The notes under the pieces: generated by a model
What the model was told of the DNA's origin: nothing
Seen by the model: the letters and a program-made list of their open reading frames with translations, nothing else
Databases searched by the model: none
In this document: piece by piece, positions 18,407 to 48,405 of the stretch
Layout: every line of letters begins with the position of its first letter
Position numbering within the stretch: the stretch's first letter is position 1
Translations under genes and position numbers: made by a program
Assembly (NCBI GenBank): GCA_951812525.1
Contig: OX638316.1
Coordinates: 4,768,506-4,832,505 of the forward strand
Length of the DNA stretch: 64,000 bases
Direction of reading: 5' to 3'
From: an uncultured Poribacteria bacterium
GTDB lineage: Bacteria > Poribacteria > WGA-4E > WGA-3G

Positions 18407-20176
18407 ATGCAACAGACACTAAACACAGCATCGCTTGTTGAGGTGGTTCGACAGGCATCTGCTATCTCCGAGCAAGTCTATAAAGACATCGTCGCAGAAA
18501 TAAAACAGACTGGTGCCTCTGAAGCGGCTGTGCTTTCTAAGCACGGTGTGCCATCGGATATCCTCACACTTGCCACAAAAAGCGTTGAATACAGAACACC
18601 CTTCATTCAACTGGAAGGCACCACTCCCGATTCTGCCGTACTTGAGAAAGTATCCCCGGGTTTTGCATATCGCAATAAAATTGTACCTATCGAATTAACA
18701 GGTGATGAACTCACCGTTGCGTTGGCAGATGTCTTGGATGTTGTGCTCATAGACGAACTCCAACTCATCACCAGCTGCCGAATTATCCCCATTCTTGCCG
18801 ATGAAACAGATATTGATGAAGCAATAGTTCGTCTCTACGGACGTACTGCGGAGAGCCTTCTCAGTGCGGGTATTAAGGGACCTGTCGGCGCAACTACCAC
18901 GTTTGAACGCGAAACGATTGATGACTTCGGAATTGACGAAAAAGACCTGAGTCAAGACCCAACAGTCATACACGCCGTTGACCAGATGATCATTGATGCT
19001 GTTCGGATGGGTGCAAGTGATATACACATCGAGCCTTACCCGACGCAATTGAAGATTCGGTTTCGTGTTGATGGCGTGCTGGAAGATCAACCGCAACCGC
19101 CCGCCTATTTGCAATCGGCAATCACCTCACGTATCAAAATTATGGCTGGTATGGACGTTGCAGAACGTAGACGGCCGCAAGATGGAAAAATCAGTCGGCA
19201 GATTGGCAGCGTTGGTAACCGACAGATAGATCTTCGCGTCTCCACGGTTCCAACCGTTGCAACCCTGCACGGCGAAAGTGTTGTTCTCCGTATTCTCGAC
19301 CGGCAATCCATTGAATTTGGACTCGCAGAGCTTGGATTGACCGAAGATAACCTTGCACTCTTCCATCGTATGATTCGCAAACCGCACGGCATCATCCTTG
19401 CCACAGGTCCTACGGGAAGTGGAAAAACGACCTCACTCTACGCCTGTCTGAAAGAGATTAATTCACCCGACGTAAAAATCATCACCCTTGAAGATCCAGT
19501 CGAGTATGAATTAGACGGTATCAACCAAATTCAGGTTAATCCGGATATCGACTTTACTTTCGCCGATGGGCTCCGCCATATTTTACGCCAAGATCCTGAT
19601 AAGGTATTAGTCGGTGAGATTCGCGACTATGAGACTGCTGAAATGGCAATCCACACGTCGCTGACCGGACACCTAGTCTTCAGCACCCTCCACACCAATG
19701 ATGCGCCTGGTGCTATTACACGGCTTATTGATATGAATGTTGAACCTTATCTGGTCGCCTCGACGGTTGAAGGCATTATTGCTCAACGGCTTGCACGTCG
19801 TGTATGTAAGGTATGTTGTGAAATGTACTTGCCTGAAATGCATGAACTGGCAGGGCTTATGGGGAACGGTCATGGCAACGGCTCTCCTCTCCCCTACGAT
19901 CTGCAGATTCCGAAAGCGGTTGGCTGCAAAGAGTGCCGCGGCAGAGGGTATAAAGGCAGAATTGGCATCTTCGAAGTCCTACTTATGAATGAAGAAGTCC
20001 GTGCAATGGCACTTAAACAGGCATCAACGAGTGAAATTCGCCGTCTCGCAATCCAATTGGGAATGAAAAGCTTACGTGAAGACGGTTGGCGCAAAGTCGC
20101 GGCGGGTTTGACAACCGTTGAGGAAGTTATCCGATTAACTCAGGAAGATGAATTCGATTTCGGAGAAGTTGTGTAG
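18407..20176 (+). CDS. gspE: Type II secretion ATPase GspE
   Basis: This 589-residue cytoplasmic ATPase of the GspE/PilB family drives pseudopilus assembly. The N-terminal ~150 residues look like the MshEN/GspE N-domain. The catalytic part has Walker A GPTGSGKTT (Lys340), the Asp box ITLEDPVEYEL, Walker B LRQDPDKVLVGEIRD and the His box GHLVFSTLHTNDA. The zinc-binding tetracysteine is present as CKVC and CKEC around residues 467-510, with a Gly/His-rich insert between. It opens the secretion gene cluster. There is no strong ribosome site before ATG 18407. Confidence 0.95.
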   Translation: MQQTLNTASLVEVVRQASAISEQVYKDIVAEIKQTGASEAAVLSKHGVPSDILTLATKSVEYRTPFIQLEGTTPDSAVLEKVSPGFAYRNKIVPIELTGDELTVALADVLDVVLIDELQLITSCRIIPILADETDIDEAIVRLYGRTAESLLSAGIKGPVGATTTFERETIDDFGIDEKDLSQDPTVIHAVDQMIIDAVRMGASDIHIEPYPTQLKIRFRVDGVLEDQPQPPAYLQSAITSRIKIMAGMDVAERRRPQDGKISRQIGSVGNRQIDLRVSTVPTVATLHGESVVLRILDRQSIEFGLAELGLTEDNLALFHRMIRKPHGIILATGPTGSGKTTSLYACLKEINSPDVKIITLEDPVEYELDGINQIQVNPDIDFTFADGLRHILRQDPDKVLVGEIRDYETAEMAIHTSLTGHLVFSTLHTNDAPGAITRLIDMNVEPYLVASTVEGIIAQRLARRVCKVCCEMYLPEMHELAGLMGNGHGNGSPLPYDLQIPKAVGCKECRGRGYKGRIGIFEVLLMNEEVRAMALKQASTSEIRRLAIQLGMKSLREDGWRKVAAGLTTVEEVIRLTQEDEFDFGEVV

Positions 20177-20213
20177 TTCACTTGAAACCCTTTTCCGCTA
20201 AAGGAGAGTTGCG

Positions 20214-21023
20214 ATGAAGTTGACAACGATTGGAATAGCAATTTTGCTTCTCACTCTTCCGGCATGGGCGGGGACATTACGGGTGGACTTTGACAAGGGA
20301 AACTTAAAGGAGTGGCAGGAATTACTTATGGGTAATGCTGTCCCAGGTTCTTGGAGAATCGTTAACGATGAACTTCATGCGGTAAGCCCAGACAGATGGA
20401 CACGTCTACTCACGATTGGTGATACTACATGGGACGATTACACCATCGAATTTGATGTCAAGCCTCTCAAAAAGCCAGGTGCCGGCAATATTGCTATTGC
20501 GGCTCGGATCAAGGACGACTGGGCAGTGTGGTGCATGATCGGTGATCACCCATTACCCGGTAATATCTCTGAAGCTGTGTGTACGGCAGGCAATTTTCGA
20601 GATCCCTCGCCACTTTACTTCTTCGGATTCAAACCCCACCAACCGTTGGGATTAAAGCAGTGGTCAAAACTGAAACTGAGTGTTGAGACGAATACCTTAA
20701 ATTTTTGGATTAACGGAGAGCATGCCCTTGGACCAATAGTACTTCCGAACCGCGAAACCTTTATACGTCGTGAGGCTGTCAGAAAGCAGCATCATGAAGA
20801 ACATCATGCGGATGAAAACGGGAATTTGCCAGGATTTCGACCAATGCAGTTAGATGGATTCCAAGATTTCCTGACAGGTGCAGTCGGTTTGGGTCTCGCA
20901 AATCAGACAGCGAGATTCGACAACGTTATAATCACGGGTGACAATATACCGAACAGCGTTGGATTGTCGGTAACACCCAGAGCAAAACTCGCAACACTGT
21001 GGGGAAGTCTGAAGGGTCTTTAA
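20214..21023 (+). CDS. Secreted LamG/DUF1080-like protein with C-terminal WGSLK tail, inside the T2SS operon
   Basis: This 269-residue protein has a signal peptide (IAILLLTLPAWAGTLRVDF) and a concanavalin-like jelly-roll body: LRVDFDKGNLKEWQ, WDDYTIEFDVKPL, then ARFDNVIITGDNI. Similar domains bind or cleave glycans. The protein ends VTPRAKLATLWGSLKGL, a tail shared with four other secreted proteins in this window. AAAGGAG lies eight bases before the ATG. It lies 37 bp after gspE and 40 bp before gspF on the same strand, which makes it a likely pilot substrate or accessory factor of this secretion system. No catalytic residues are recognised. Confidence 0.8.
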   Translation: MKLTTIGIAILLLTLPAWAGTLRVDFDKGNLKEWQELLMGNAVPGSWRIVNDELHAVSPDRWTRLLTIGDTTWDDYTIEFDVKPLKKPGAGNIAIAARIKDDWAVWCMIGDHPLPGNISEAVCTAGNFRDPSPLYFFGFKPHQPLGLKQWSKLKLSVETNTLNFWINGEHALGPIVLPNRETFIRREAVRKQHHEEHHADENGNLPGFRPMQLDGFQDFLTGAVGLGLANQTARFDNVIITGDNIPNSVGLSVTPRAKLATLWGSLKGL

Positions 21024-21063
21024 GGCATCAGTGTAGTGCGAAAGTATAACGGAGAGGTTGATT

Positions 21064-22290
21064 GTGCCGATATTCCGATATGAAGCTCTTACGCATAGCG
21101 GTGGTAGCGTTAGCAATACGCTGGAAGCCGAATCCAAAGCCGAACTTATTTCCCGACTGCGACAGATGGGCTATTGGCCCACAAATATCGTCGAAGAGTC
21201 AGAAGACACCAATCCTACAGATATACGGCGATGGCTCCAAATAGGTCGTCGCCGGGTCAAACCGGCGGATGTTGAGTTTTTCACCTACCAGTTGGCAACA
21301 TTGGTAAACGCACACGTCCCGTTGCCGCGCGCATTAGAGGTATCCCTCGCACAAATTGAGAGTCCGGCGCTCCACCGCATCGTCTCACAAGTCAAATACG
21401 ATGTCGAACACGGTGCAACCTTCCACGATGCACTGACCGAACACCCGAAGGCATTTTCTAATCTCTATATCAACATGGTAAGAGCCGGAGAGAGCGGCGG
21501 CGTACTCGGTTTAGTCTTAGAACGCCTCGCAGAATTCGCAGAACGCCAGAGGCTCCTGAAAAATGATGTCGTTTCAGCCCTCTTCTATCCTATTATCTTG
21601 TTGACGCTTAGCATCACGGCTGTTACGGTGCTCATGATTCTTGTCATACCGAAATTCACAGCAATGTTTAACGATTTGGGGGTCGCATTGCCGCTTCCGA
21701 CCCAGATTCTCATTAACGTAACGGCTGCCTTCCAAACCTATTGGTGGGTTGGATTGCTGATCGCTATTATAGGTGGTGCGGGGTTAAGACAATATCTTCA
21801 GCATGAAACGGGGCAAGTCTGGTTTGATAGGTTGAAACTCAAGTTGCCCCTCATCGGTCCGATATTTAGTACTTTTGCTATTGTTCGTTTCACACGGACA
21901 ATGGCAACTCTTTTGGAAAACGGTGTTCGTATGCTACCTGCTCTCCAGGTTGTCAAAGACACTATCGGAAACAAGGTGTATAGCAACGTCATCACAGCAG
22001 CAACAGTGGAAGTTGAACAAGGTTCCACGCTCTCTCGTGAACTCGGCAGAAGCAAGGATTTTCCTGAATTTGTTACCCACATGGTGGCTGTTGGTGAGGA
22101 GTCGGGTGAACCTGTTCACATGCTCAGCAAACTCTCCGAATACTACGATTTAGAAATAAAAAAGAGTCTTGAACGTTTAACGAGTTCCATCGGTCCGCTT
22201 GTTATCTTACTGATGGGAATTATTATCGGGTTTATCGCTGTTGCGATGATCCTTCCGATCTTTGAAGCAAATCAATTGTTAAGCAATTAG
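21064..22290 (+). CDS. gspF: Type II secretion inner-membrane platform protein GspF
   Basis: This 408-residue protein has the duplicated GspF/PilC domain: VEFFTYQLATLVNAHVPLPR in the first half and RFTRTMATLLENGVRMLPAL in the second. It has three membrane segments, with the last at the C-terminus (VILLMGIIIGFIAVAMILPI). GTG 21064 lies six bases after GGAGAGG, better than TTG 21058. It links GspE to the pseudopilus. Confidence 0.94.
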   Translation: MPIFRYEALTHSGGSVSNTLEAESKAELISRLRQMGYWPTNIVEESEDTNPTDIRRWLQIGRRRVKPADVEFFTYQLATLVNAHVPLPRALEVSLAQIESPALHRIVSQVKYDVEHGATFHDALTEHPKAFSNLYINMVRAGESGGVLGLVLERLAEFAERQRLLKNDVVSALFYPIILLTLSITAVTVLMILVIPKFTAMFNDLGVALPLPTQILINVTAAFQTYWWVGLLIAIIGGAGLRQYLQHETGQVWFDRLKLKLPLIGPIFSTFAIVRFTRTMATLLENGVRMLPALQVVKDTIGNKVYSNVITAATVEVEQGSTLSRELGRSKDFPEFVTHMVAVGEESGEPVHMLSKLSEYYDLEIKKSLERLTSSIGPLVILLMGIIIGFIAVAMILPIFEANQLLSN

Positions 22291-22353
22291 TTGGGAATCG
22301 GGGTTACAAACCGCTCCTACAGTATGTTTTGAGTTTAGACAGGAGAAAAATAA

Positions 22354-22809
22354 ATGGTCACGCACCTAAAATCCGACGAATCTGGATTAACACTCATTGA
22401 ACTGACAATCGTGATTGTCATCTTAGGTATCCTCGCAGCCTTCATCGCGCCTCGTGTCATAAACGCTCCGCAGCAGGCGAAAGTCGCGAAGGCACAAACA
22501 GAGATTAACAGTATTAAGACGGCGTTGGAACAGTATGCGATAACAACAGGGGAATATCCGACAACCGAACAGGGATTAAGTGCCTTGTGGCGCGTCCCGA
22601 GCCCCGCGCCAACAAACTGGGACGGTCCCTATGTAGACAGTCCAAATTTCTTAGATCCATGGGATAACCCATACGTCTATCGCCAACCTGGCACGCATTA
22701 CGGCTACGACTATGACCTTTATTCAACCGGAAAAGATGGCAAGATAGGCGGGACTGAGCTGGATGCGGACATTACCAATTGGGTTGACGAAACAACCGGA
22801 GTAAATTAA
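22354..22809 (+). CDS. gspG: Major pseudopilin GspG
   Basis: This 151-residue prepilin has the cleavage site ESG/LTLIELTIVIVILGILAA, with Glu at +5 of the mature protein, followed by the canonical GspG region VINAPQQAKVAKAQTEINSI and GEYPTTEQGLSALW. A C-terminal calcium-site-like region (WDNPYVYR, DYDLYSTGKDGKIGG) is typical of GspG. GGAG lies just upstream. It builds the pseudopilus shaft. Confidence 0.95.
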   Translation: MVTHLKSDESGLTLIELTIVIVILGILAAFIAPRVINAPQQAKVAKAQTEINSIKTALEQYAITTGEYPTTEQGLSALWRVPSPAPTNWDGPYVDSPNFLDPWDNPYVYRQPGTHYGYDYDLYSTGKDGKIGGTELDADITNWVDETTGVN

Positions 22810-22813
22810 ACCA

Positions 22814-23494
22814 GTGTTGCAAGCTACAGATAGGCGATCTTCTCAACTGCAGAGGGGATTCACAGTCACAGAGTTACTGCTTGTTTTAGTAATCATCGGC
22901 GTGCTCTCGGTAATCTCAATGCCTGCCCTGAAGGGGTTCGCGGCAACGCGACGCTTAAAAGCATCTGCCTATACGCTTCGCAGTCTACTTACTTTTGCGC
23001 GAGACATGGCAATAACGGATCAGATAACGTATCTTGTGGTGTTCAATCTTGACAACGGTCAGTACTGGCTCGCCTCCAGTGAAACGTTTAACCCGAGTGA
23101 TCCGCTCAGGTCAGCACTCACCGCTCAAAACTCCACTGCGTTAGCAGCTATTCAGAACAATATTAACGGAGCTCCTCCTACAATTGGAAACTCCCGTCAA
23201 CAGAATCCCTTGTCTCGTGTTGGTGGTATCCTCGGTGTACCACATTCAATGGAACAGCATGTAACCTTAGCCTCAATGTTAACGAACTACAACGGCAGAA
23301 CTGTCCAAGCCGATGCCGGTGTCGGTTACATCCATTTCTCGCCTAATGCGACCTCCGAAGAGGCAGTCGTGTACCTGCGGAACTTGCGCAACCAGATAAT
23401 GTCTGTCACCGTTGAAGCAGCGAGTGGACGTGTCCGTGTCCGACAACTTGTGCCTGCGGAAATAGAAATGTTAGGGTTTGAAACAGAAAACTAA
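22814..23494 (+). CDS. gspH: Minor pseudopilin GspH-like
   Basis: This 226-residue prepilin has the cleavage region QRG/FTVTELLLVLVIIGVLSV and a following helix KASAYTLRSLLTFARDMAI that fits GspH. It starts at GTG 22814, four bases after the gspG stop. The globular domain is poorly conserved, so assignment to H rests on order and length. Confidence 0.82.
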   Translation: MLQATDRRSSQLQRGFTVTELLLVLVIIGVLSVISMPALKGFAATRRLKASAYTLRSLLTFARDMAITDQITYLVVFNLDNGQYWLASSETFNPSDPLRSALTAQNSTALAAIQNNINGAPPTIGNSRQQNPLSRVGGILGVPHSMEQHVTLASMLTNYNGRTVQADAGVGYIHFSPNATSEEAVVYLRNLRNQIMSVTVEAASGRVRVRQLVPAEIEMLGFETEN

Positions 23495-23529
23495 TTTGTC
23501 TGCAACTTCGGATCGAAGGCATTACAAAC

Positions 23530-23943
23530 ATGACACCTTCAATCAAAGACTTGACCAGAAAAGAAAAAGAAGGTTTTACGCTCGTCGAGATACTCGTAAC
23601 GCTAACGATTTTGGCGGCTGCACTCCCGGCACTTTTGCAGGCGTTCGCTTCTGCTACACGGAATCAAGGACTTTCAGATAACACCACGACTGCCCTCTAC
23701 CTCCTCAAATTTCGGATGGCGGAGATTGAGATGGAAGGGTATCCAGATGTAGGACAGGAAACGGGTGAATTCGGTGAAAATACGCGCTACCAGTGGCGTT
23801 CGGTCGTTGAAGACATCGAATCTGATGAAGTTGAAAATATCCGACGGGTTATGGTGACGGTTACGTGGCAACATAGAAATAGAGCGCGTTCAATGTCTAT
23901 GAGCACCTTTATAGCGGATCGACAAATGCCACAGGAAGAATAG
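23530..23943 (+). CDS. gspI: Minor pseudopilin GspI-like
   Basis: This 137-residue prepilin has the site KEG/FTLVEILVTLTILAAALPA and the short GspI-type domain (LYLLKFRMAEIEMEGYPDVG, TVTWQHRNRARSMSMSTF). GAAGG lies upstream of ATG 23530. Position H-I-J-K supports the call. Confidence 0.85.
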   Translation: MTPSIKDLTRKEKEGFTLVEILVTLTILAAALPALLQAFASATRNQGLSDNTTTALYLLKFRMAEIEMEGYPDVGQETGEFGENTRYQWRSVVEDIESDEVENIRRVMVTVTWQHRNRARSMSMSTFIADRQMPQEE

Positions 23944-23953
23944 CAATCGGCTG

Positions 23954-24220
23954 TCTGAACCACGGATTACACGGATGACGCAGATTATTCGGGTTGTGTG
24001 CATCCGATACCTATAATTGAGTGTTGGAGGACACTTCGCATCCCACAAACTATGGGAAATTATAAAAATACATTGACATTTCAATGAAGCAGAAAAGCAT
24101 ATTTAATAAATATACGAACGCTTCTATACAGACAGACTCTTGAGTCCCGGAGGGACGTTATGTCTATAGAAAATCCTGATCGCCAATCTCGTGAACCCCG
24201 TAGGGGTGACATACGTAAAA
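23954..24220. repeat. Repeat-filled gap inside the T2SS operon
   Basis: The 419-bp gap between gspI and gspJ holds the second CACGGATTAC repeat (23954-23986) and two palindromes with the shared tail: GTCCCGGAGGGACGTTATGT (24144 on) and AACCCCGTAGGGGTGACATA (24194 on). I see no gene. Repeats have probably accumulated here between genes that are usually adjacent. Confidence 0.6.
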
Positions 24221-24362
24221 CTTTCCACTTGCTGGTCCGTTTCATGGTGTCAAAGTATTCTAAAATCTACCATAAATGAAGTTTCAGAATTTAATTCGCT
24301 AATTTCTCAACGTGCGATAAATCGCACTACTACAAACTGGAACGCGGAGTTATTAAAGAATC

Positions 24363-25277
24363 GTGAAGAGAGAAAACAAGCAACCCCATATTATCAGTGA
24401 GAGTGGGCTGACACTCATCGAAATGCTTATGGCAGTCAGTATCCTCGTTATTATTGGAGGCTCAGCGTATTTTGCATTTAAGACAGCCGTAGATGCCTAT
24501 CATCGGACAGAGGCAAAGATATTGGCTGCACAAAGATGTCGGGTCGCTATGGATCGGTTGGTAACAGACCTACAAAACATGTACATTTCGCTTGAGGCAC
24601 CAGAACTTGCACTTCACACGCAAGACGGACCGAGTCAACTCGGCGATAGAGATATGCTTAGCTTCGTCACACTGGTAAAAACAGACCCGGATCCCTTTCT
24701 GGAGCAGCTTGCGAGTTTTCAATCTCAGAACACTGCACAAGCGCCTTTGCAACTTTTAAGTGATGTGCAACGTGTGGCGTACTTCGTTGGACCTGAACTG
24801 CCACCCGGTGAGTCGGCACTGAGTTCAGGATCTTTCCAAGGCGGAATTACAAGCGACACAAGTTCTGAACAGACTGGCGAGTACGCTCTCTTTCGCGTTG
24901 CAACGACAACTCTCGATCCTGAAACTGTCATCGGCACCTTTTTACAAACAGGTGAGGTGCCACAAACAGACGAAAATGGCGATCCTATTTATGTCGATAT
25001 GGCGACTCTCATTGCGGGACTTGCGAGTTTCGACCTGAAGTATTTTGATGGCGAGACAGAGAGATGGAATCCGTCATGGGATGATGCTGAGAGTATACCC
25101 AGTGCGGTTCAGATTCTCATAACAGTTCAAGGTGAGCCACAGCAGACGGTAAGTGTTGATACGACACAACCTGTGCTGCAAGGTCAACCTGTAACGCAGC
25201 CAAACAGTATGACACAATCAACGATGGTGTATCTACCAGCGAGTGCTACTGCAGGTGGTGCTCCTCAGGGACAGTAG
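24363..25277 (+). CDS. gspJ: Minor pseudopilin GspJ-like
   Basis: This 304-residue prepilin starts at GTG 24363. The cleavage site is SESG/LTLIEMLMAVSILVIIGGS, then YHRTEAKILAAQRCRVAMDRLVTDLQ, typical of GspJ. The C-terminal half is longer than usual and ends in a Gln/Thr/Pro-rich stretch. It runs to within five bases of gspK. Confidence 0.85.
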   Translation: MKRENKQPHIISESGLTLIEMLMAVSILVIIGGSAYFAFKTAVDAYHRTEAKILAAQRCRVAMDRLVTDLQNMYISLEAPELALHTQDGPSQLGDRDMLSFVTLVKTDPDPFLEQLASFQSQNTAQAPLQLLSDVQRVAYFVGPELPPGESALSSGSFQGGITSDTSSEQTGEYALFRVATTTLDPETVIGTFLQTGEVPQTDENGDPIYVDMATLIAGLASFDLKYFDGETERWNPSWDDAESIPSAVQILITVQGEPQQTVSVDTTQPVLQGQPVTQPNSMTQSTMVYLPASATAGGAPQGQ

Positions 25278-25281
25278 ACAG

Positions 25282-26847
25282 ATGACACAGTTGGCAAAAT
25301 GTGCTTTCCAGACGTTCCGCAAAGAGCAGCACGGGTTATCTCTCGTTTCAACGCTCTGGATACTGACGATTCTCTCAATTCTGGCGACGCAGCTGCTTTA
25401 CTCGATCCACATAGAACAACGCACACAACGAAATTTTTTGGACAGAGCGAAGTTTCACTATGCCGCTAGAGCTGGGTTTGAATGGACGTTGGCGCGCATG
25501 CGTGGAGATCAGACGCCTTTCGATTCACTGGGGGAAAGTTGGACAGAACCTATTGAGGGACAGGTTGAAGACGGTATCCAAGTTGGTAATTTCTTAAACT
25601 ATCGTGTGACAATCACTGACGAAGCGTCAAAAGTGAATGTTAACACTGCGGACGTAGGACTTATTAGCAATTTGCTCGCGCAGGTAGGGGCTTCGCCAGA
25701 TGATGCGCTGACGCAAGAACTTGCGAATAAAATTGTAGAAGGGAAGCCATACCGCACGGTTCGAGACCTTGCTCGCGTCGAAGGAATGACATCCGAACTC
25801 CTCTATGGCGTACAACAAACAGGGGGATTCACACAAACCTCTACGACCACAACGAGTGCAACCACTGGATTCTCAACAGCCAATTTCAGCAACCCTCAAG
25901 CGACCGCAACAGATAGACAACCGGGACTTGTCGATTTAGCAACCATCTACTCAATCGATGCCAGCACTGATCCAAACGGACAACCACTGGTCAATATCAA
26001 CACCGCAGATGCAGAGGCACTCACCCAAATTAACGGGCAACAAAATCAACCTGTTTTTACACAAGGTGAGGCAGAATCACTCATCCAACAACGCGAATTT
26101 GATAAGTTTGCAGCGTTGATAGACGTACAGGCTGTTTCCGACGAAATTTTTAACAATATCCAAGACCGACTGACGACCGAAGATACTAATGAAGAAACTG
26201 AGGAAGAAAAAACCGAGGAAGAAGAAACCAACAATCCACAGCAACAAAACGGGCAACAGCAAGACGAAAATGGACAAGTGAATATTAACACTGCCGATGT
26301 CGAAACCTTTGAATCATTACCCGACATTGATCAAGGGATTGCCCAACGGATCGTCAATCACCGTGATACACAAGGATTTTTCCAGAACATTGATGCTATT
26401 AAAGATGTCAAAATGTTAACACAACAAGAATTCATCGGTATTGTTGACAAAATTACGCTAAAAGACGGAGACACACGCAACGGTCTGATTAACATAAATA
26501 CGGCACCATCGGAGATCCTCGCACTGTTACCTGGCATGGACCCACAAAAGGCGGAGGCGATTGTTGCACGCCGAGAATCGGATGCACCCGATACCTCGCA
26601 GCTACAGAGTTTTACGGAAGAAGTGATAAAAGGCAATCCGTTTACCAGTATCTCACAGCTTTCTGAGTTAGCGGAAATTGACTTTGCAACGTTTCGTGAA
26701 GTTGTGGATTGGGTAACCCATCGCTCCCACGGATACCGGATTGAAGCAAACGGCGTTGATATGGCAGACAAAGTTATCTCAACCTGTATCGGTATCATCG
26801 ACCGCACGGGTAACGAGATTCGTGTTCAATACTGGCGACAGGATTGA
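25282..26847 (+). CDS. gspK: Pseudopilin-tip protein GspK with four helix-hairpin-helix motifs
   Basis: This 521-residue protein has an N-terminal prepilin-like segment (EQHGLSLVSTLWILTILSILA) and the GspK helix DRAKFHYAARAGFEWTLARM. It then holds four ComEA-type N-[IV]-N-T-A motifs: KVNVNTADV near residue 117, LVNINTADA near 237, QVNINTADV near 333 and LININTAPS near 403. An acidic, Gln-rich linker separates the second and third. GspK usually has one or two such SAM/HhH-like modules, so this version is expanded. ATG 25282 is preferred to the ATG at 25243 inside gspJ. Confidence 0.87.
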   Translation: MTQLAKCAFQTFRKEQHGLSLVSTLWILTILSILATQLLYSIHIEQRTQRNFLDRAKFHYAARAGFEWTLARMRGDQTPFDSLGESWTEPIEGQVEDGIQVGNFLNYRVTITDEASKVNVNTADVGLISNLLAQVGASPDDALTQELANKIVEGKPYRTVRDLARVEGMTSELLYGVQQTGGFTQTSTTTTSATTGFSTANFSNPQATATDRQPGLVDLATIYSIDASTDPNGQPLVNINTADAEALTQINGQQNQPVFTQGEAESLIQQREFDKFAALIDVQAVSDEIFNNIQDRLTTEDTNEETEEEKTEEEETNNPQQQNGQQQDENGQVNINTADVETFESLPDIDQGIAQRIVNHRDTQGFFQNIDAIKDVKMLTQQEFIGIVDKITLKDGDTRNGLININTAPSEILALLPGMDPQKAEAIVARRESDAPDTSQLQSFTEEVIKGNPFTSISQLSELAEIDFATFREVVDWVTHRSHGYRIEANGVDMADKVISTCIGIIDRTGNEIRVQYWRQD

Positions 26848-26914
26848 ATTATGGATTGTGGGTTATGGGTTGTGAATTGTGGGTTATGAGTCAGGAAATG
26901 TAAGGGTAAAAAAA

Positions 26915-28693
26915 ATGGCAAAAAACCGAGTCGTGGCGATAGATATCGGCACAAACACAGCGAAAATGGTGCAACTTGAACTGTCATCTACAGCCGTGCA
27001 TCTTATTGATGCAAACGTCGTGACATATCCAGATGCGGCTGATCGGCAGCATGTTGTTGAATCGATAGAGCGTCTTTGGTCGTCGTTAGATACGCCACCA
27101 ACGCCACGAAATCTCCGCTCATTATTCAACAGGGATAAGACAGAGATCGCGCTTGCCCTTCCACGATTCTTGGTAAGTACGAAACGTTTAGGGAACCTAC
27201 CTGCTGCGACAGACAACCAACTCGCTAACATTGTTGCGATCTCGGCAGAAACAGAACTCCCTTTTCGCATTGATGAAGCCATCTTTACCTACCACGATGT
27301 GCATCGAACATCAGAGGCGGTGTCGGTAGAGTTAATATCGACCCGACGTTCTACGGTTACAGACTACCTTGCTCTACTTGAACAGATTGGCGTGTCAGCT
27401 TCGGCGGTCATACCTTCAACGATAGCAATCGCTGAGGTGGCCGCGAAGAGTGGATGCCCCCGACCCACATTCATCGTTGATATTGGTGCCGAACAGACAG
27501 ACTTCTGTTTCATGCAAGATGGTGTACTTCGGTTCTCCCGAAGTTTCCGGCTCGGTGAAAACCATCTGTCCGAGCAGGTGAGAAGTGCATTGAATACTGA
27601 TATTGAAACAGCAAGGGAAGAAAAAAAGTTCATCTCGGCAGGCGAACCTCCTACATCTACATGGACAACTCAATTCATCGGTGAACTTCAGCGTTCGATT
27701 GCTGCTGCCAAGCCCCACGAAGAAACTAATGGTTTTGGTACGGCAGAAAACGCAGGCGGTGCTACCAATCTGATGCCATCGACAGCAGAAACAGAACTTT
27801 GGTTGTGTGGTAGCGGTGCACGCGTCCCAGAACTGACCACCGCTTGTGAAACTGAACTCAACATTACAACACAACTATGGAATCCGCTCGACGCTATTGA
27901 ACAGCACGCAAGTATTGATACACAACTTGCAAGTGCAGCAGCGAAAACCATACTCGACGAATGGGGTGACACGTTGGCTGTGCCATTAGGCGTTGCGCTT
28001 AATACGCTGAATCCGAGCACAAAAGTGTCACTTCTACCTAAAGAAGCCGTTGATACGCTGACCCAAACGACACGACAACGGCAGATGTTCGCTGCTGCTG
28101 GATTAGGGGTTCTGGTGATCGGGGGACTCCTTTTTGGTGGCTATACCCTTCAACGCTCGCAGGAGCACAGATCCGAAGCACTGGACACACAACTGGCGCA
28201 CTACGCACAGCCTATGGCGTTAGCGAAAGCCCAACTCGGACGCGAACTGGCAATTACCGAGATGTTAGCGCACCATATCTCGCCACTGGACATTCTACAC
28301 ACGCTTAGTGCGATGTTCAACGATAGAACGCAGATAGCTTGGACAAATTTCAATATTACGAATCTCAACACGCCTGAGACGGCTCGCATCACCTTCAATT
28401 TGGAGAGTTCTTCTCATAACGCCATTAACTCTCTGTTGCGTGCGCTTAATCGGTCAGATGTTTTTAACAATGTTCAAGCTGGGGAAGTAACAACAACTAC
28501 CCAAAACAGGAAACAGATTTTTCAAGTGCAGGTACGCTGCAACCTTATGTCATCTGCAGTCCGGGCATTTGCTAAAAAACGCTATCCAATGCCGCAACCG
28601 TCAACCGATGACATGGCGATGGATGCTGAACTAAACATCAGACCGCCTGCGATGAACACCATCGAAGAGAAGAAAAACGAAACAGACAAATAA
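26915..28693 (+). CDS. gspL: GspL/PilM-like ATPase-fold protein fused to a PilN-like domain
   Basis: This 592-residue protein begins with an actin-like fold of the PilM/GspL type (VVAIDIGTNTAKMVQLE, then TFIVDIGAEQTDFCFMQDG). Near residues 390-412 is a membrane segment (MFAAAGLGVLVIGGLLFGGY), followed by a periplasmic ferredoxin-like PilN/GspL domain ending in VQVRCN. It would link GspE to the inner-membrane platform. ATG 26915 follows TAAGGGT. Just upstream, 26850-26889 holds imperfect copies of GTGGGTTATGGGTTGTGAAT. Confidence 0.85.
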   Translation: MAKNRVVAIDIGTNTAKMVQLELSSTAVHLIDANVVTYPDAADRQHVVESIERLWSSLDTPPTPRNLRSLFNRDKTEIALALPRFLVSTKRLGNLPAATDNQLANIVAISAETELPFRIDEAIFTYHDVHRTSEAVSVELISTRRSTVTDYLALLEQIGVSASAVIPSTIAIAEVAAKSGCPRPTFIVDIGAEQTDFCFMQDGVLRFSRSFRLGENHLSEQVRSALNTDIETAREEKKFISAGEPPTSTWTTQFIGELQRSIAAAKPHEETNGFGTAENAGGATNLMPSTAETELWLCGSGARVPELTTACETELNITTQLWNPLDAIEQHASIDTQLASAAAKTILDEWGDTLAVPLGVALNTLNPSTKVSLLPKEAVDTLTQTTRQRQMFAAAGLGVLVIGGLLFGGYTLQRSQEHRSEALDTQLAHYAQPMALAKAQLGRELAITEMLAHHISPLDILHTLSAMFNDRTQIAWTNFNITNLNTPETARITFNLESSSHNAINSLLRALNRSDVFNNVQAGEVTTTTQNRKQIFQVQVRCNLMSSAVRAFAKKRYPMPQPSTDDMAMDAELNIRPPAMNTIEEKKNETDK

Positions 28694-28747
28694 AATACAG
28701 GTTTTCGTTGGCTCTAATAAACGTCCGTGTCTATAGAGGACTGATTT

Positions 28748-30058
28748 ATGGAACTGAATTTTGAATTAACACCTCGAAGCAAAATTTTACTCGGAATTTT
28801 AGGCTGTGTACTCCTGATTGTGCTCATATTACAGGCGGCTCCTATCTTCTATGGTATATTTGCAAATCAAGACACCAAAACGAAACAAGCGGAGCTGATA
28901 AAGACCGAAAATTTGGTTCAGGTTGCTGAAATACTCAAACCTATTGAATTTGAAATTTACAAAGCCGCAGGCTTGGCACCTACAGCAGATGTACAGATGA
29001 ACACACGCACACAAGATGCCACTACACTCTTTGACACAGAATCCCCTGAAACAGTGATTCGGGCGCGTATTGATGCACTTGTCAGACGTGCTGGCATTCA
29101 ACAGAATTATCAACTGCTAACGAAGCCGGGGACAACTAAACAGACGCAAAAACTAACCATGCAGACACGGGAAAACCTTGTCCGCTACCTCTACCTCAAG
29201 CATATAGAGACGGAACAAAAAGAACTCACAGAGATTAATGAAGAGCAGACAGAAGCAGACACCTTCAATATGCTGATGAATGCGTGGCTCTCGGAAACCG
29301 AAACCGACGAAAAGAAGGAGAAATCAGACAGTTCGTCTTCCAAGTCGGCATCCGCCACAGACTTTTCAAAAACTGTTTCGCCGCGTTCCACTGGGTCGGA
29401 AGCCGAGGATAAAGCACGCTCAATTAATCCAATAGAGACTGGGGGTGTGTGGAAATTTGCGCCGCTTCCAGAAGTGATACCTATCACACTTCGCGTTAAA
29501 CTTGCGGGGTTTATCAAAACCATGACGCTGCAGCAGCTACGCGGTGCGACAGACTTTAGGCAAGGCTTCTTTGAAGCACAGATTCAGAAAATCAGAACTT
29601 CTGCGACATCCGGTATTTTGGGTATCGGTGCGAAGCCAGCTACGGTCACAATCCAATTGCGCAGGAACGGTGCGCTGTTGAACTTTCTTACGCAAGCGTT
29701 AGACGAGGTGTACATCGAGGAGCCGTTAGATATAGGTGAACTCCAATCTTCACTCATCAAATATATTGAGAGAATTCAAGAACAACAAGCGATGCTTCTG
29801 GAGCAACTGGCGTTAGCACCGCCGACTTATCAGACAGAACTGTACACCGTCGAAATGAAATTCAAAACAGACCTTGAAAAACTTGTTAACCTAAACCACC
29901 TCATTGAAACGGGTGCCAAATGGCTGACAGTGCGCGATTTACGAATTTCCGCTGATAAACAGGGCGCAGCGAGTCCCGCAGCGGCGCGTGGACGGAATCC
30001 TGAGGATGCCGGCGCGAATTTGAATGTGGATATATTCCTTATCGCTCGGATATTTTAA
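28748..30058 (+). CDS. GspM/PilO-like inner-membrane protein
   Basis: This 436-residue protein has one N-terminal membrane segment (ILLGILGCVLLIVLILQAAP), a long helical region, a Ser/Lys/Glu-rich linker near 190-225, and a C-terminal alpha/beta domain. Position after the GspL-like gene and topology fit GspM/PilO, which completes the inner-membrane assembly platform. It is longer than typical GspM (~160-200 residues). AGAGGA precedes the ATG. Confidence 0.65.
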   Translation: MELNFELTPRSKILLGILGCVLLIVLILQAAPIFYGIFANQDTKTKQAELIKTENLVQVAEILKPIEFEIYKAAGLAPTADVQMNTRTQDATTLFDTESPETVIRARIDALVRRAGIQQNYQLLTKPGTTKQTQKLTMQTRENLVRYLYLKHIETEQKELTEINEEQTEADTFNMLMNAWLSETETDEKKEKSDSSSSKSASATDFSKTVSPRSTGSEAEDKARSINPIETGGVWKFAPLPEVIPITLRVKLAGFIKTMTLQQLRGATDFRQGFFEAQIQKIRTSATSGILGIGAKPATVTIQLRRNGALLNFLTQALDEVYIEEPLDIGELQSSLIKYIERIQEQQAMLLEQLALAPPTYQTELYTVEMKFKTDLEKLVNLNHLIETGAKWLTVRDLRISADKQGAASPAAARGRNPEDAGANLNVDIFLIARIF

Positions 30059-30269
30059 CCTAAGTTACCACCTTGTAGTATAACCTGTTAGGTTGTGCAT
30101 CTTTGTGCCGAAAATGACAAGGAACACGCAAAAATGACGCTTCTCGCTGAAAAATAGGGTTCGTGACCTAAAATCATATACGTAGCAAGTTGGGTTATTT
30201 TAATAGCTTGGGCAAATAAAAAATCTTTTTAAACGACAACAGGAAACTAACAACTAAGGATTAGATGTT

Positions 30270-33218
30270 ATGCAAGGACGAAAATTCTTATTTATTTCGC
30301 TACTGTGCTTGGGATTGCTCATCGCAGGACTTGTTGAGTTGCCGGCACAGGAACAAGAATCGACAATGAGGGTCGCACAAACCGATGTAGAAGGTCGGGC
30401 GATCCGCTTTGACTTTAACTTTACGAGTCAAGAACTGAAAGGTCTCTTTGAATGGCTCTCACGCGAAACTGACCTTACTATTATTGCCAGCGAAGAGGAT
30501 ATTCAGGATAAAAAATTCTCACTCATCAATCTTAGAAATGTAACAATCGAAGAGGTAATCGAAAAAATTAAAACCGTCCTGACGCAATATGACCTGACGC
30601 TTATCCAAACCGATAACACACTCTTAATCACAACATTTGAGCGTGCCATGGTAACAAAAGGGACAGTAAAAAATATCACACCCGATCCTGAACTCGTCGA
30701 TATGACCGACGAAATCCAAACTTATATTATCCAATTAAACACTGTCGTCGCCTCCGAACAGGTAGAACGCCTCAAACCACTACTGAACAAACAGGCAAAC
30801 ATCTTCGCAGATACCGCAACAAACACACTCGTCATAACGGATGTTGCCTCCAACATACGCCGAATTGTGGCGATTCTTCAGGTAGCTGACGAAGGTGAAC
30901 GCTTTCCCTTAAAGATTCTCATTATCCCGCTCGGTTATGCTGATGCGAGTACCTTGGCACAGACATTGAGCAGCATTTTTCAGGAAAGAGATGATGATGA
31001 TAATGAGAGACAGCAAACAGGGAGTGGACCCGGTATGAGTGCAGAAGATGCCAAAACTGCTGCGGCTGAAATGAAAGCCGACGGTACAGGTTATGAAGTT
31101 CTCGACGGGACGATTAAGATTGTTGCTGAAACCAGTTCTAATTCACTCGTCCTCAAAGCCTCTGAGGCGAACCTAGTTTTCCTCCAAGAGATCGTCAGGG
31201 AGCTTGACGTCGCTCCGAGTCTGCAAACCCATATACGGACATTCCGACTCAAATACGCAGCCGCTGAAGATGTCGCAACAACACTCCAAGAAGTTCTTAC
31301 CGGCGAACGCAGCGAAAATCGTGGTCGAATGGACCCTTGGGACCGAGCGAAACTCAGAGATTATCAACGTGAACGGGGGGTCGACCAATCCCAAGGTATC
31401 ATCGGTAACGTCAACGTCTCTCACAATGATCGGCTCAATATCGTCGTTGTCTCCTCAGATCCGCGTAACTTCTCCATCATTGAAAAGGTTATCAACGAAC
31501 TCGACCAAGAACAGACCCAAGAAGAAATTAGGCTATATTTTCTAAAGTTCGCTGATGCTGAAACCCTCGTACCGAGCCTACAGGACCTCTTTGAAGGTGG
31601 CACTACTGGCGCCGATAGGGAACGTCCATGGTGGGAACGCAGATTCCGAGAACCAACGGAAGAGGGTGGTGGTGGTGGTGGATTTGGTGTGCAAGGTGAG
31701 GTCCATCTCGTTGCCGACATACGTCTCAATGCGGTCCTTATCTCTACGAGCGCACAGAATTTTGAGACGATTGATGGACTTATCAAAAAACTGGATGTCA
31801 ACATGCCGGACCAGGAATGGGGTACCCGCATGTATAAACTCAAATTTGCCGATGCTGAGAATGTTGCAGCTATCATCAACAACGTATATCAAGGCAGTGG
31901 CGGCAACACTGGAAACTTCTTCTTTTTTCTTGCTGAACGTCAACGCAATCAGACGCAAGGTTCACTCGCAGGTAACGTGACTGCTGAAGCCTACCCGACG
32001 CTGAATGCGGTCATCGTCTCAACTGCTACACAACGTAACTTCGATCTAATTACAGAGTTTATTAACTCCATGGACGTTCCCACACCCGAAGGGCAAAGGG
32101 AGATTACTGAAGCAATACGGCTTGAGTATGGCAACGCCGATCATCTTCAGCAAGTTCTCGATCAGGTCTGGGAAGGCGATGAATCTGATGGATTCGATTT
32201 TAGAGCCTTCTTCGCCTCCGGTGGCAGGCAGGAACAGCAAGACATTAACTCCTTACGTGGCAAAGTCACTATCTTTGCTGATGCCGATACCAATTCCCTG
32301 ATTGTCACGACGCGGCAGCGATACCTTCCGGCTGTCAGAGCACTCATTAAGAAATTAGACTTCGTCCGAGGACAGGTCTGGATAGATATTCAGATTCTGG
32401 AAGTCACGCTTGACGAGACCACTAAACTCGGTATTGAACTTACTGCGCAAGAAAAAAGAATCTTTGGGACCTCCATAGCTCCTGGCAACCCACTCATTGG
32501 CAATTTTGAAAGCCAACTCGGACTGGAACAGGAAATCTCTGGGTTTAACATCGGTTTGGCAACTAGGGAGTATCTGTCTCTGCTCCATACCCTTATGCGT
32601 GAGAACAAGGTTCAAACCCTGTCAACACCTTCACTATTGACACGAGACTCTTGGAACGCTACGTGGAGCAGTGGACGACGAATTCCATACCTACAGAGTG
32701 TTGATACGACGAGTATCTTGGGTGAGGCAGTTTCACAACCGCTTTTCAACTACGATTTCATCGATCCACCCGTGGGTATCAATATCTCACTCACGCCTTA
32801 CATTGCTAAGTCGCAAGTAAGCGAAGATGGCAAACGGACGATCGGCTTGGATATTGAAAACATTAGTGCGAGTAATTTCATTGAGTTTACCGACTTCAAT
32901 GCGCCTATCACCGATGATAACGCTATTAGCGTTTATATTGACGTTGAAGATGGTCAACAGATTGTCGTCGGGGGTATCATTCGGAAGAAGCAGAAACAGG
33001 TAGAAAATAAACTCCCAATCTTAGGTGATATACCGTTGATCGGTAGGCTCTTCAAAAACACCGAAACCGGTGTTGAAGATACGGAGATTGTCATCATTAT
33101 TACGCCACATATCGTTGACATCAATAATCCTGATGACCTCGAGAAACTTAAGGAGAAAGCCCAAGATTGGCAGAATAACGGTGCGACTGAAAAAGAAAAA
33201 GAGTCTGGAGAGGAATAG
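30270..33218 (+). CDS. gspD: Type II secretion outer-membrane secretin GspD, with expanded N-domain array
   Basis: This 982-residue secretin has a signal peptide (FISLLCLGLLIAGLVELPAQ), an N0-like domain (residues ~45-130), and about six N1-type modules instead of the usual three. Their starts read IQLNTVVASEQVERL, IPLGYADASTLAQTL, FRLKYAAAEDVATTL, YFLKFADAETLVPSL, YKLKFADAENVAAII and IRLEYGNADHLQQVL. The conserved secretin barrel follows from VWIDIQILEVTLDETTKLG to VGGIIRKKQKQVENKLPILG and TEIVIIITPHIV. It forms the outer-membrane exit pore. It closes the cluster; no GspC or prepilin peptidase is in the window. Confidence 0.93.
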   Translation: MQGRKFLFISLLCLGLLIAGLVELPAQEQESTMRVAQTDVEGRAIRFDFNFTSQELKGLFEWLSRETDLTIIASEEDIQDKKFSLINLRNVTIEEVIEKIKTVLTQYDLTLIQTDNTLLITTFERAMVTKGTVKNITPDPELVDMTDEIQTYIIQLNTVVASEQVERLKPLLNKQANIFADTATNTLVITDVASNIRRIVAILQVADEGERFPLKILIIPLGYADASTLAQTLSSIFQERDDDDNERQQTGSGPGMSAEDAKTAAAEMKADGTGYEVLDGTIKIVAETSSNSLVLKASEANLVFLQEIVRELDVAPSLQTHIRTFRLKYAAAEDVATTLQEVLTGERSENRGRMDPWDRAKLRDYQRERGVDQSQGIIGNVNVSHNDRLNIVVVSSDPRNFSIIEKVINELDQEQTQEEIRLYFLKFADAETLVPSLQDLFEGGTTGADRERPWWERRFREPTEEGGGGGGFGVQGEVHLVADIRLNAVLISTSAQNFETIDGLIKKLDVNMPDQEWGTRMYKLKFADAENVAAIINNVYQGSGGNTGNFFFFLAERQRNQTQGSLAGNVTAEAYPTLNAVIVSTATQRNFDLITEFINSMDVPTPEGQREITEAIRLEYGNADHLQQVLDQVWEGDESDGFDFRAFFASGGRQEQQDINSLRGKVTIFADADTNSLIVTTRQRYLPAVRALIKKLDFVRGQVWIDIQILEVTLDETTKLGIELTAQEKRIFGTSIAPGNPLIGNFESQLGLEQEISGFNIGLATREYLSLLHTLMRENKVQTLSTPSLLTRDSWNATWSSGRRIPYLQSVDTTSILGEAVSQPLFNYDFIDPPVGINISLTPYIAKSQVSEDGKRTIGLDIENISASNFIEFTDFNAPITDDNAISVYIDVEDGQQIVVGGIIRKKQKQVENKLPILGDIPLIGRLFKNTETGVEDTEIVIIITPHIVDINNPDDLEKLKEKAQDWQNNGATEKEKESGEE

Positions 33219-45720: not shown

Positions 45721-46449
45721 GTGCGAAAAATGGTTATTTTCTGTTACCTGATAATGTCAGTTCTGCTGTTGTGTCAGGTAAGCGATGCGAAGCTGCTCGT
45801 AGCAGATGAGTTTAATGGTAAACTCAACGGTAAATATTGGAAGGGCCAAGGCGAGTCTTGGGATACGAATAACGGTCGTTTAGAAATCCATCGAGTTGGT
45901 GGAGATGGCAACGGTGCGATTGATTTTGGATATGGATTGATAGAATTTGAAGATTTCGGGCTGCGTCTCGATTTCCATCTGCTTGTTGATCCATTTCCGA
46001 GCAAAATGGAACTCCTGTTTCGTGCCAACGTAGATTACCACTTCTATCAAGTGATTATCACGCCGTCCGATGGTGCTGGTCGCCCGAATTCTGCACGCTG
46101 GTATAAGCGCGAAGGAAATGATCGGGGTACTTGGAATGAGTACCGTGAACATAGAGCGGAATTCCCAATTGAGGTTTTATCGAAAACGTGGTACACGCTG
46201 GCGTTGCTTGGGACCGGCAATACATTCCAACTCTATATCAAAGAACAAGGTCAACTTGTCTATGATAAGGTTTATGAATGGACGGATCCGAAAAACCTCC
46301 ATCCTAAAGGGGTTCTTGGGATTCACACGAATCAACTTCAACACTACTACATTGACAACCTTTTCCTTTATGATAACCCGCGCGAGGTTAACCTCGCCGT
46401 TGAACCTGAAGGCAAACTTGCTCTAACATGGGCTAGTCTTAAGCAGTAA
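45721..46449 (+). CDS. Secreted LamG/DUF1080-like protein with WASLK tail
   Basis: This 242-residue protein has a signal peptide (MVIFCYLIMSVLLLCQVSDA) and a jelly-roll domain: VADEFNGKLNGKYWKGQGES, WDTNNGRLEIHRVGG, FGLRLDFHLLVDPF and YYIDNLFLYDN. Related domains bind or cleave carbohydrate. It ends VEPEGKLALTWASLKQ, matching the tail of the protein inside the T2SS operon. GTG 45721 is eight bases after GGGAGG; ATG 45700 would place that site within the gene, and ATG 45730 is also possible. The catalytic status is unclear. Confidence 0.8.
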   Translation: MRKMVIFCYLIMSVLLLCQVSDAKLLVADEFNGKLNGKYWKGQGESWDTNNGRLEIHRVGGDGNGAIDFGYGLIEFEDFGLRLDFHLLVDPFPSKMELLFRANVDYHFYQVIITPSDGAGRPNSARWYKREGNDRGTWNEYREHRAEFPIEVLSKTWYTLALLGTGNTFQLYIKEQGQLVYDKVYEWTDPKNLHPKGVLGIHTNQLQHYYIDNLFLYDNPREVNLAVEPEGKLALTWASLKQ

Positions 46450-46569: not shown

Positions 46570-47442
46570 ATGAAACAGTTTTTCCTAATATCGGCACTCA
46601 GTTTATCGCTTTTCGCGCTCGCATTGACGAGTGCGTTCGCAGCAGATCTGGCAATCTATTCGGGTCCGACGAACTCGGGTTGGATTTCACAAGACGCTGC
46701 CATCGCGAACGCTGAAACGATTATGGACGATGATCAGATGCAAGCGATTTTCGAGAGTATTGAAAACTACGGAGATGGTGATGAAGTCGGTTCCGATTCA
46801 CCTTTAGGTCAATGGATGATAGCACACACGGGAAACGGACAGCAGGATGTCTTTATTGCTGCGTCTGGTACCGCCCCAAGTGCGGTCTATCAATTCCCGA
46901 ACGTAGATCCGGACGGCTCCAACATTGAGAATTTCATTGAGGACGGGAACGTTTTTATTAACGTTGCCGACTGGCTCTTGTATATGAGTTACGAAGGCGG
47001 GAGCCGGAGTGCTGATAATGGTGCCGCTGGGGCTGCGAACGTTTTTGACATCGATGGTCTTAGCTTCGGCAACCGAGGTGGTCCACAGGTTCCAACGGAC
47101 ACTGGTCAGGCATACATTCCATCGCTGGAAGAGTTTCAATCCGATAGGCCTTGGCACCTTGAGCAGTTTGATGGCACAGATTGGGAAGTTACCCCTTTCG
47201 CTACCTCAGGCGACGATCCGAACACCGCTGATCCAGCCGTTGCTGTTAATACAACATACGGCGGCGTTATCGCCGCAATGTGGCAAAAAGCACAGCCTGA
47301 CTGGGACGGCGACGACCCGCGGGCAAGTGGTGTCATAGAATTTATCGCCAACTGGCTCACGGAAAACGGAGACATCGCAACTCCTGTAGAAGCCCAGGAC
47401 AAGGCAGCAACAACCTGGGGCAGAATTAAATCTGGTCGATAG
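46570..47442 (+). CDS. Secreted protein of unknown function with WGRIK tail, paralogue 1
   Basis: This 290-residue protein has a signal peptide (LISALSLSLFALALTSAFAA) and begins DLAIYSGPTNSGWIS. It shares most of its sequence with the next gene: IENYGDGDE, IAHTGNGQQDVFI, GNVFINVADWLLYMSYEGG, NGAAGAANVFDI, RPWHLEQFDGTDW and IAAMWQK. It ends VEAQDKAATTWGRIKSGR. AAAGGAGG lies 11 bases before ATG 46570. I do not recognise the fold; the alternating hydrophobic strands and VADW region weakly recall amidotransferase-like (ThuA) folds. It probably acts in the periplasm or outside. Confidence 0.8.
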   Translation: MKQFFLISALSLSLFALALTSAFAADLAIYSGPTNSGWISQDAAIANAETIMDDDQMQAIFESIENYGDGDEVGSDSPLGQWMIAHTGNGQQDVFIAASGTAPSAVYQFPNVDPDGSNIENFIEDGNVFINVADWLLYMSYEGGSRSADNGAAGAANVFDIDGLSFGNRGGPQVPTDTGQAYIPSLEEFQSDRPWHLEQFDGTDWEVTPFATSGDDPNTADPAVAVNTTYGGVIAAMWQKAQPDWDGDDPRASGVIEFIANWLTENGDIATPVEAQDKAATTWGRIKSGR

Positions 47443-47538: not shown

Positions 47539-48405
47539 ATGAAAATCTATGTAGGTATAGCCCTCTTTGCTCTTTTGAGCTGCGTGGCTACAGTTTCAGC
47601 AAACGATTTGGCATTCTACTCAGGACCCACCAATCCGGGTTGGATTTCTGACGGTGCAGTCGCCGAAAATGTCAAAGCGATTAGCAATGACCCGGGGGTC
47701 AAAGCCCTGTTTAACAGCATTGAAAATTTTGGTGACGGCGACGAAGAAGGCGACAATTCACCCCTCGCCCAATGGTGTGTTGATCACACAGGTAACGGTC
47801 AACAAGACGTTATTATCCTTGCTTGTGGCACCTCACCGAGTGCACTTTATCCGTTCCCAAACAAAAAGCCCGATGGCTCTAATGTAGAGAACTTCATTGA
47901 GGAAGGTAATGTCGTCATTAACGTGGCAGACTGGATCTTCTACATGAGCTACGAAGGTGGCGTTCGGAGCCCAGATAACGGTGCAGCGGGTGCTGCGAAT
48001 GTTTTTGATATTCCCGGGTTAAGTTTCGGCGACCGGGGTGCTAACTTTGAAGCAACTGCTCTCGGAAAAAAGGTTATTCCTTCGTTCAAGCCCTATAAAT
48101 CCACACGTCCGTGGCATCTGGAACAGTTCGATGGTTCGGATTGGGATGTTGTCGTTTTCGCCGAAGCAGATAAGAATACCGCAGACCCAGCAGTCGCAGT
48201 CAGCAAGACACCCGGTGGAGATGGTACTGGGATGATTGCAGCAATGTGGCAGAAGAATGCCCCTATCTGGGCTGATAAACCAGATATCCGAGGTGTTGGC
48301 GTTGCTGAATTCATCAACAACTGGCTTGCAGTAGAAGGATCGTTTGACGTTGAAGCGAAGAATAAAGCAGCGACAACCTGGGGAGCAATCAAGCAGGGTC
48401 GCTAA
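47539..48405 (+). CDS. Secreted protein of unknown function with WGAIK tail, paralogue 2
   Basis: This 288-residue tandem duplicate of the previous gene starts MKIYVGIALFALLSCVATVS, then NDLAFYSGPTNPGWIS. Conserved blocks match throughout, with an extra cysteine-containing pair (WCVDHTGNGQQ, LACGTSPSALYPF). It ends VEAKNKAATTWGAIKQGR. AAAGGAGG precedes ATG 47539 by 11 bases, the same spacing as in paralogue 1. ATG 47509 would put the ribosome site inside the gene. Confidence 0.8.
   Translation: MKIYVGIALFALLSCVATVSANDLAFYSGPTNPGWISDGAVAENVKAISNDPGVKALFNSIENFGDGDEEGDNSPLAQWCVDHTGNGQQDVIILACGTSPSALYPFPNKKPDGSNVENFIEEGNVVINVADWIFYMSYEGGVRSPDNGAAGAANVFDIPGLSFGDRGANFEATALGKKVIPSFKPYKSTRPWHLEQFDGSDWDVVVFAEADKNTADPAVAVSKTPGGDGTGMIAAMWQKNAPIWADKPDIRGVGVAEFINNWLAVEGSFDVEAKNKAATTWGAIKQGR

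Follow-up and report, generated by a model that had tools for sequence, protein, structure and literature searches.

A short WG-containing C-terminal tail on exported proteins of Poribacteria as a likely sorting signal

Five tailed proteins in a window with a type II secretion operon

The window, that is the whole 64,000-nucleotide stretch of DNA analyzed here (G000:C1:4768506-4832505), lies within a 5.06 Mb single-contig genome of Candidatus Poribacteria, a group best known from marine sponges. It carries a complete type II secretion system (T2SS) operon, into which the gene for an exported protein, hereafter X, is inserted, and four further genes for proteins that share with X a similar C-terminal tail (Table 1). 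All five tails read as the original prediction had stated, with the correction that the gene at 48543-49523 sits on the minus strand. The proposed unlikeness of the proteins that bear them also stood, except in the number of families: since the products of 46570-47442 and 47539-48405 are paralogous, the window holds four body families rather than five. The relatives of X come, every one, from Candidatus Poribacteria. A paralogue of X in the same genome (G000:C1:1665799-1666530, minus strand; L003) has an in-frame TGA and appears broken. The window further codes for a 925-residue protein (39930-42707; start KDIIQRCHERH) from a family of three in the 1.66 Mb of this genome that we sampled, the members of which lie within three genes of four of the 56 tailed genes.

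Table 1. Tails in the window and secretion genes of the same genome (positions without a locus prefix are those of the window)
Feature	Position	Strand	Remarks
WG tail VTPRAKLATLWGSLK of X	20970..21014	+	carrier: 3-keto-disaccharide-hydrolase-like protein 20214-21023
WG tail VEPEGKLALTWASLK	46399..46443	+	carrier: exported protein 45721-46449, possible ORF start 45700
WG tail VEAQDKAATTWGRIK	47386..47430	+	carrier: exported protein 46570-47442, without Pfam match
WG tail VEAKNKAATTWGAIK	48349..48393	+	carrier: exported protein 47539-48405, paralogue of 46570-47442
WG tail VSPQPHLLTTTWSKMK	48561..48608	-	carrier: TolB/PD40-like propeller protein 48543-49523; disordered in confident model
Type II secretion operon gspE-X-gspF-G-H-I-J-K-L-M-D	18407..33218	+	complete T2SS in window
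X, tailed exported protein between gspE and gspF	20214..21023	+	insertion in own genus
PorU-like C25 protein	L134:10010-16297	-	2095 residues; NF033707 E 3e-110; PDB PorU 6za2 E 4e-32
PorV-family protein	L134:8890-9909	-	above its cut-off; adjoins PorU-like gene
SprA-like 2248-aa protein	L136:1073-7819	-	TIGR04189 E 3e-41; ~25 kb from PorU-PorV pair

The tail is 15-17 residues long, has the rough form V-x-P-x-G-K-L-x-T-T-W-G-x-L-K and is followed, behind the last conserved Lys, by 1-12 mostly polar residues, without a trailing hydrophobic helix, as the original prediction had already observed. The structural model of the propeller protein 48543-49523 is confident (mean pLDDT 80; TolB as the top PDB match), with most of the propeller at a pLDDT of about 80-94 and the last 20 residues (307-326) below 50. 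The AlphaFold model of P0001 is of low confidence (mean pLDDT 47), and its tail scores low too.

A conserved motif at the end of many exported proteins

We scored a 17-column profile, the seed motif of which demanded W[GAS]x[LIMFV]K, against 1,086 ORFs called with simple scripts in a 1.664 Mb sample of the own genome, taken by region. It matched 58 proteins at 15-51 bits and none of the shuffled proteins, the best of which reached 5.7 bits; the 12 columns outside the seed selection hold ~27 bits of information. A position at the extreme C-terminus had been predicted, and 56 of the 58 matches indeed lie within 20 residues of it, in a region that holds only ~5% of the 17-mers, the profile stopping 1-12 residues short of the stop codon. 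Matches inside proteins had been named as evidence against a tag: two of the 58 are internal, and both stand directly before a C-terminal domain (CTD) like the type A sorting domains of the type IX secretion system (T9SS). The consensus is [LF][PA]V[ES][PA]x[GD]KL[TAS]TTW[GA]x[LI]K, followed mostly by 2-4 variable residues. At the DNA level, a degenerate pattern for T-T-W-G-x-[LIMF]-K has 57 matches in the own genome and its reversed control has none; at 28 of 30 TTWGx[LIMF]K loci examined the protein ends within 12 residues past the W (16 and 95 residues at the other two). Extrapolated from the 1.66 Mb sample, the genome codes for about 170 tailed proteins.

The Thr, Gly and Lys codons of the motif vary freely, so its conservation is at the protein level; repeat-borne DNA as the source of the similarity was rejected. 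Among ten orthologues and paralogues of X, V253, P255, K258, L259, T261, W263, G264, L266 and K267 are invariant, with both the codons of the motif and the residues in between variable, and the motif is under purifying selection.

By a crude rule, applied with simple scripts, signal peptides are called in 51 of the 56 tailed proteins versus 362 of the 1,030 untailed ones (Fisher p 2e-17; p 7e-16 with the window left out), in line with the expectation that the motif would be found almost only in signal-peptide proteins. Of the five tailed proteins that fail the rule, two show an evident hydrophobic N-terminus on inspection and three are 5′-truncated ORFs; essentially all intact tailed proteins are predicted to carry signal peptides. 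Their bodies, which had been expected to be many and different, form 15 unrelated groups (Blast components of the 56 proteins), in a set dominated by homologous LamG proteins (30/56 with LamG-like bodies). Many of them look sugar- or surface-binding (LamG, jelly-roll).

These data bear on two trivial explanations, the chance of which we put at practically nil. A fortuitous similarity is refuted by the absence of matches among shuffled proteins and of the reversed DNA pattern, whereas a common domain with the tail as its final strand, which would have undone the original prediction, is excluded by the 15 body families together with the disorder of the tail (pLDDT below 50) relative to the propeller that it follows. 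No Pfam or NCBIfam model covers the tail, nor was any NCBIfam match found at the tail in the five window proteins or in 10 from outside the phylum, and the literature, of which our coverage is incomplete, offered nothing relevant on the motif or on a Poribacteria sorting signal. The original prediction, too, knew of no described system with this motif. We hold it to be nearly certain that the WG tail is a real and so far undescribed short C-terminal tag.

Under the strict pattern, the tail is present in 84 of 85 Poribacteria genomes. The exception, G009, codes for LamG proteins with variant tails such as SVEPAGKLAVQWADLRSQR, which rule it out as a natural knockout and, once counted, bring the tally to 85/85; in remote members of the phylum, too, the tail stands at the extreme C-terminus. 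As every genome of the phylum has the tail, phylogenetic profiling is without power. The pattern is largely missing from the 302 non-Poribacteria genomes, with an excess in G204 (12), G218 (7), G355 (6), G109 (5) and G277 (5). In G218, G355 and G277 (L281-L292, L297-L300), TTWGxIKxLYR* or a close variant is found at the extreme end of exported proteins, behind beta-helix, NHL-propeller, CHRD and Cys-rich bodies; the overhang past the K is tighter here, at 4-5 residues. The predicted tag, in the form TTWGxIKxLYR*, is found in at least three families outside Poribacteria. In another genome, G187, the motif is terminal in two short ORFs, and two propeller-like proteins, L295:2868-3944 and L296:4012-5082 (-), have TTWGGIKKM and then ~45 basic residues.

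Short C-terminal signals and the type II secretion reading

The PEP-CTERM/exosortase, GlyGly-CTERM/rhombosortase and MYXO-CTERM/myxosortase systems each involve a short C-terminal homology region on exported proteins that are otherwise unlike and number dozens in a genome (PMC1569441, PMC3237569, PMC11980579), and in being common to many unlike exported proteins of one genome the WG tail is like them. Those regions comprise a signature motif, a transmembrane helix and a basic cluster, whereas the WG tail lacks the helix and has 1-12 polar residues after its Lys; it displays neither a C-terminal transmembrane helix with a basic cluster nor a match to a curated CTERM model. The likeness to PEP-CTERM-type sorting signals that the original prediction drew survives only as an analogy. 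For the tail itself we infer the function of a sorting or localization signal, a reading that we consider likely.

Being without a hydrophobic helix, the tail is not exosortase- or rhombosortase-like, which also tells against its being a processing tag for a periplasmic protease, chaperone or transpeptidase, apart from outer-membrane export. The shortness of the motif, its place close to the C-terminus of exported proteins and the free residues after the K would suit such a tag, but that free end of 1-12 residues counts against carboxylate-binding PDZ-type readers, and we regard this option as highly improbable. The similarity to encapsulin cargo-loading peptides, which are likewise short and C-terminal, is superficial: their cargoes are cytosolic, whereas the WG-tailed proteins are exported.

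The T2SS presents a different candidate. How it recognizes its substrates is an old open question, and we know of no shared linear C-terminal signal established for it. Its substrates carry Sec signal peptides, exit folded and, like the tailed proteins, have extracellular-type bodies; T2SSK is found in 82/85 Poribacteria genomes. The complete gsp operon of the window, with a tailed X between gspE and gspF, speaks for the tail as a substrate-recognition signal of this system, and the same tightly packed gspE-X-gspF, with X tailed in every case, recurs in six related Poribacteria records (seven with the own genome), the own-genus status of which was inferred from 85-89% GspE identity and not from taxonomy. 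However, G029, which belongs to a sister genus within the family, has no X between gspE and gspF, and neither has any of the remoter T2SS loci in which the gspE-gspF junction is covered; no conserved genetic link of X to the gsp genes was found outside close relatives, and of the roughly 170 tailed genes X is a single one. As the arrangement is limited to close relatives, the T2SS was demoted as the system of the tail, and the exchange of the tail with T9SS domains described below favors the T9SS instead. We therefore view a T2SS signal as unlikely; were it correct, it would be the first linear signal for this system. At L064:6001-7664, the tailed gene between gspE and gspF is tandem-duplicated.

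Relation of the tail to type IX secretion domains

The T9SS CTDs (type A TIGR04183/PF18962, type B TIGR04131/PF13585 and type C) are, like the tail, C-terminal signals on many unlike Sec-exported bodies; in Poribacteria the two occupy the same position behind the same body domain, and both end in or near a Lys. Unlike the 15-17-residue, unfolded tail, which matches none of the CTD models, a CTD is folded and spans ~70-100 residues, and to our knowledge the T9SS signals described so far are all folded domains of about this size. Separate CTD proteins match TIGR04183, and none of the window proteins matches the folded CTD of TIGR04183 or TIGR04131. GFP is secreted with no more than the last 22 residues of the HBP35 CTD (PMC10202324), which makes a short T9SS signal conceivable.

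A homology search with an FN3-like body domain in 19 remote genomes found it ending in the tail in six proteins, in a CTD in at least nine, and in a tail, intact or degenerate, plus a CTD in five. Seven tail-plus-CTD proteins turned up in searches that imposed no spacing, and in every one the CTD has its [YF]P exactly 7 residues after the K/R; such proteins are rare, at 0-2 per genome by a fixed-spacing pattern. CTDs sit on large proteins and tails on small ones (medians 887 versus 266 aa; p 2e-9), and the gene neighborhoods have no enrichment of tailed genes near CTD genes. As they replace each other on homologous bodies, the tail and the CTD may serve related ends; the exchange could also be compatible with bodies switching between two export routes.

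The constant position of the motif immediately ahead of the CTD in these seven proteins also befits a retention or anchoring peptide, that is, a tail that would bind a surface receptor after export by a general route, or the end left by CTD cleavage: if PorU cut off the CTD, the protein would end much as the tailed proteins do, and many of the bodies look sugar- or surface-binding. Nevertheless, no receptor candidate was found and 18 of 20 sampled CTD proteins are without the motif, which makes us rather skeptical of a retention peptide.

T9SS sorting domains in Poribacteria had been noted by Kamke et al. (2014; PMC3909097), who saw no structural Por genes and could not find the export route of the CTD proteins; candidate genes for it are now available. 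The own genome contains the outer-membrane and attachment parts of a T9SS (PorV family, PorU-like and SprA-like), with scores for the SprA-like and PorU-like proteins that are strong, yet below the NCBIfam equivalog cut-offs. The PorU-PorV pair and the SprA-like protein probably constitute the outer-membrane route of the T9SS-CTD proteins of Poribacteria. Across the 85 genomes of the phylum, C25 peptidases occur in 84, an SprA_N match in 79 (30 of them above the Pfam cut-off) and YPNPFNPE CTDs in all; no GldM was found in a search that had no working positive control. With the tail universal and parts of both the T2SS and the T9SS in nearly all Poribacteria, co-occurrence cannot choose between them within the phylum.

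The leading specific model, to which we give an even chance, is that of a short unfolded C-terminal sorting tag on Sec-exported proteins that is read by a T9SS-like pathway, the most likely of the routes. The Sec signal peptide would bring the tailed protein to the periplasm, where its body would fold, leaving V-x-P-x-x-K-L-x-T-T-W-[GA]-x-[LI]-K, and the few variable, polar residues that follow, exposed. A receptor might then bind the exposed tail and send the protein on to the outer membrane or out of the cell. The pathway most likely to supply this receptor is a type IX-like outer-membrane apparatus of SprA-, PorV- and PorU-like proteins, to which the tail would offer a minimal second signal alongside the folded CTD. 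More tentatively, a ~15-residue unfolded peptide of Poribacteria and several unrelated groups might replace a whole folded T9SS domain, giving two interchangeable signals on one outer-membrane route and well over 100 surface-bound proteins per cell.

The tail resembles a new kind of address label for cell-surface proteins, and with it the probable surface or secreted proteome of an uncultured phylum could be listed from sequence data alone; if it is a T9SS signal, it would show that a peptide much shorter than any known CTD can suffice.

Two protein families of the own genome deserve mention beside these systems. Three C25 (gingipain/PorU-type) proteins are encoded at L179:4067-9172, L180:6065-12505 and L134:10010-16297, with lengths of 1701, 2146 and 2095 residues, respectively, and about three are present in most Poribacteria. 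Proteins that combine LTD and FN3-like domains make up a large tailed family, comprising L017:6903-8810 (-) and its relatives (seven proteins of 333-990 aa, some truncated), the last body domain of which is common to CTD proteins.
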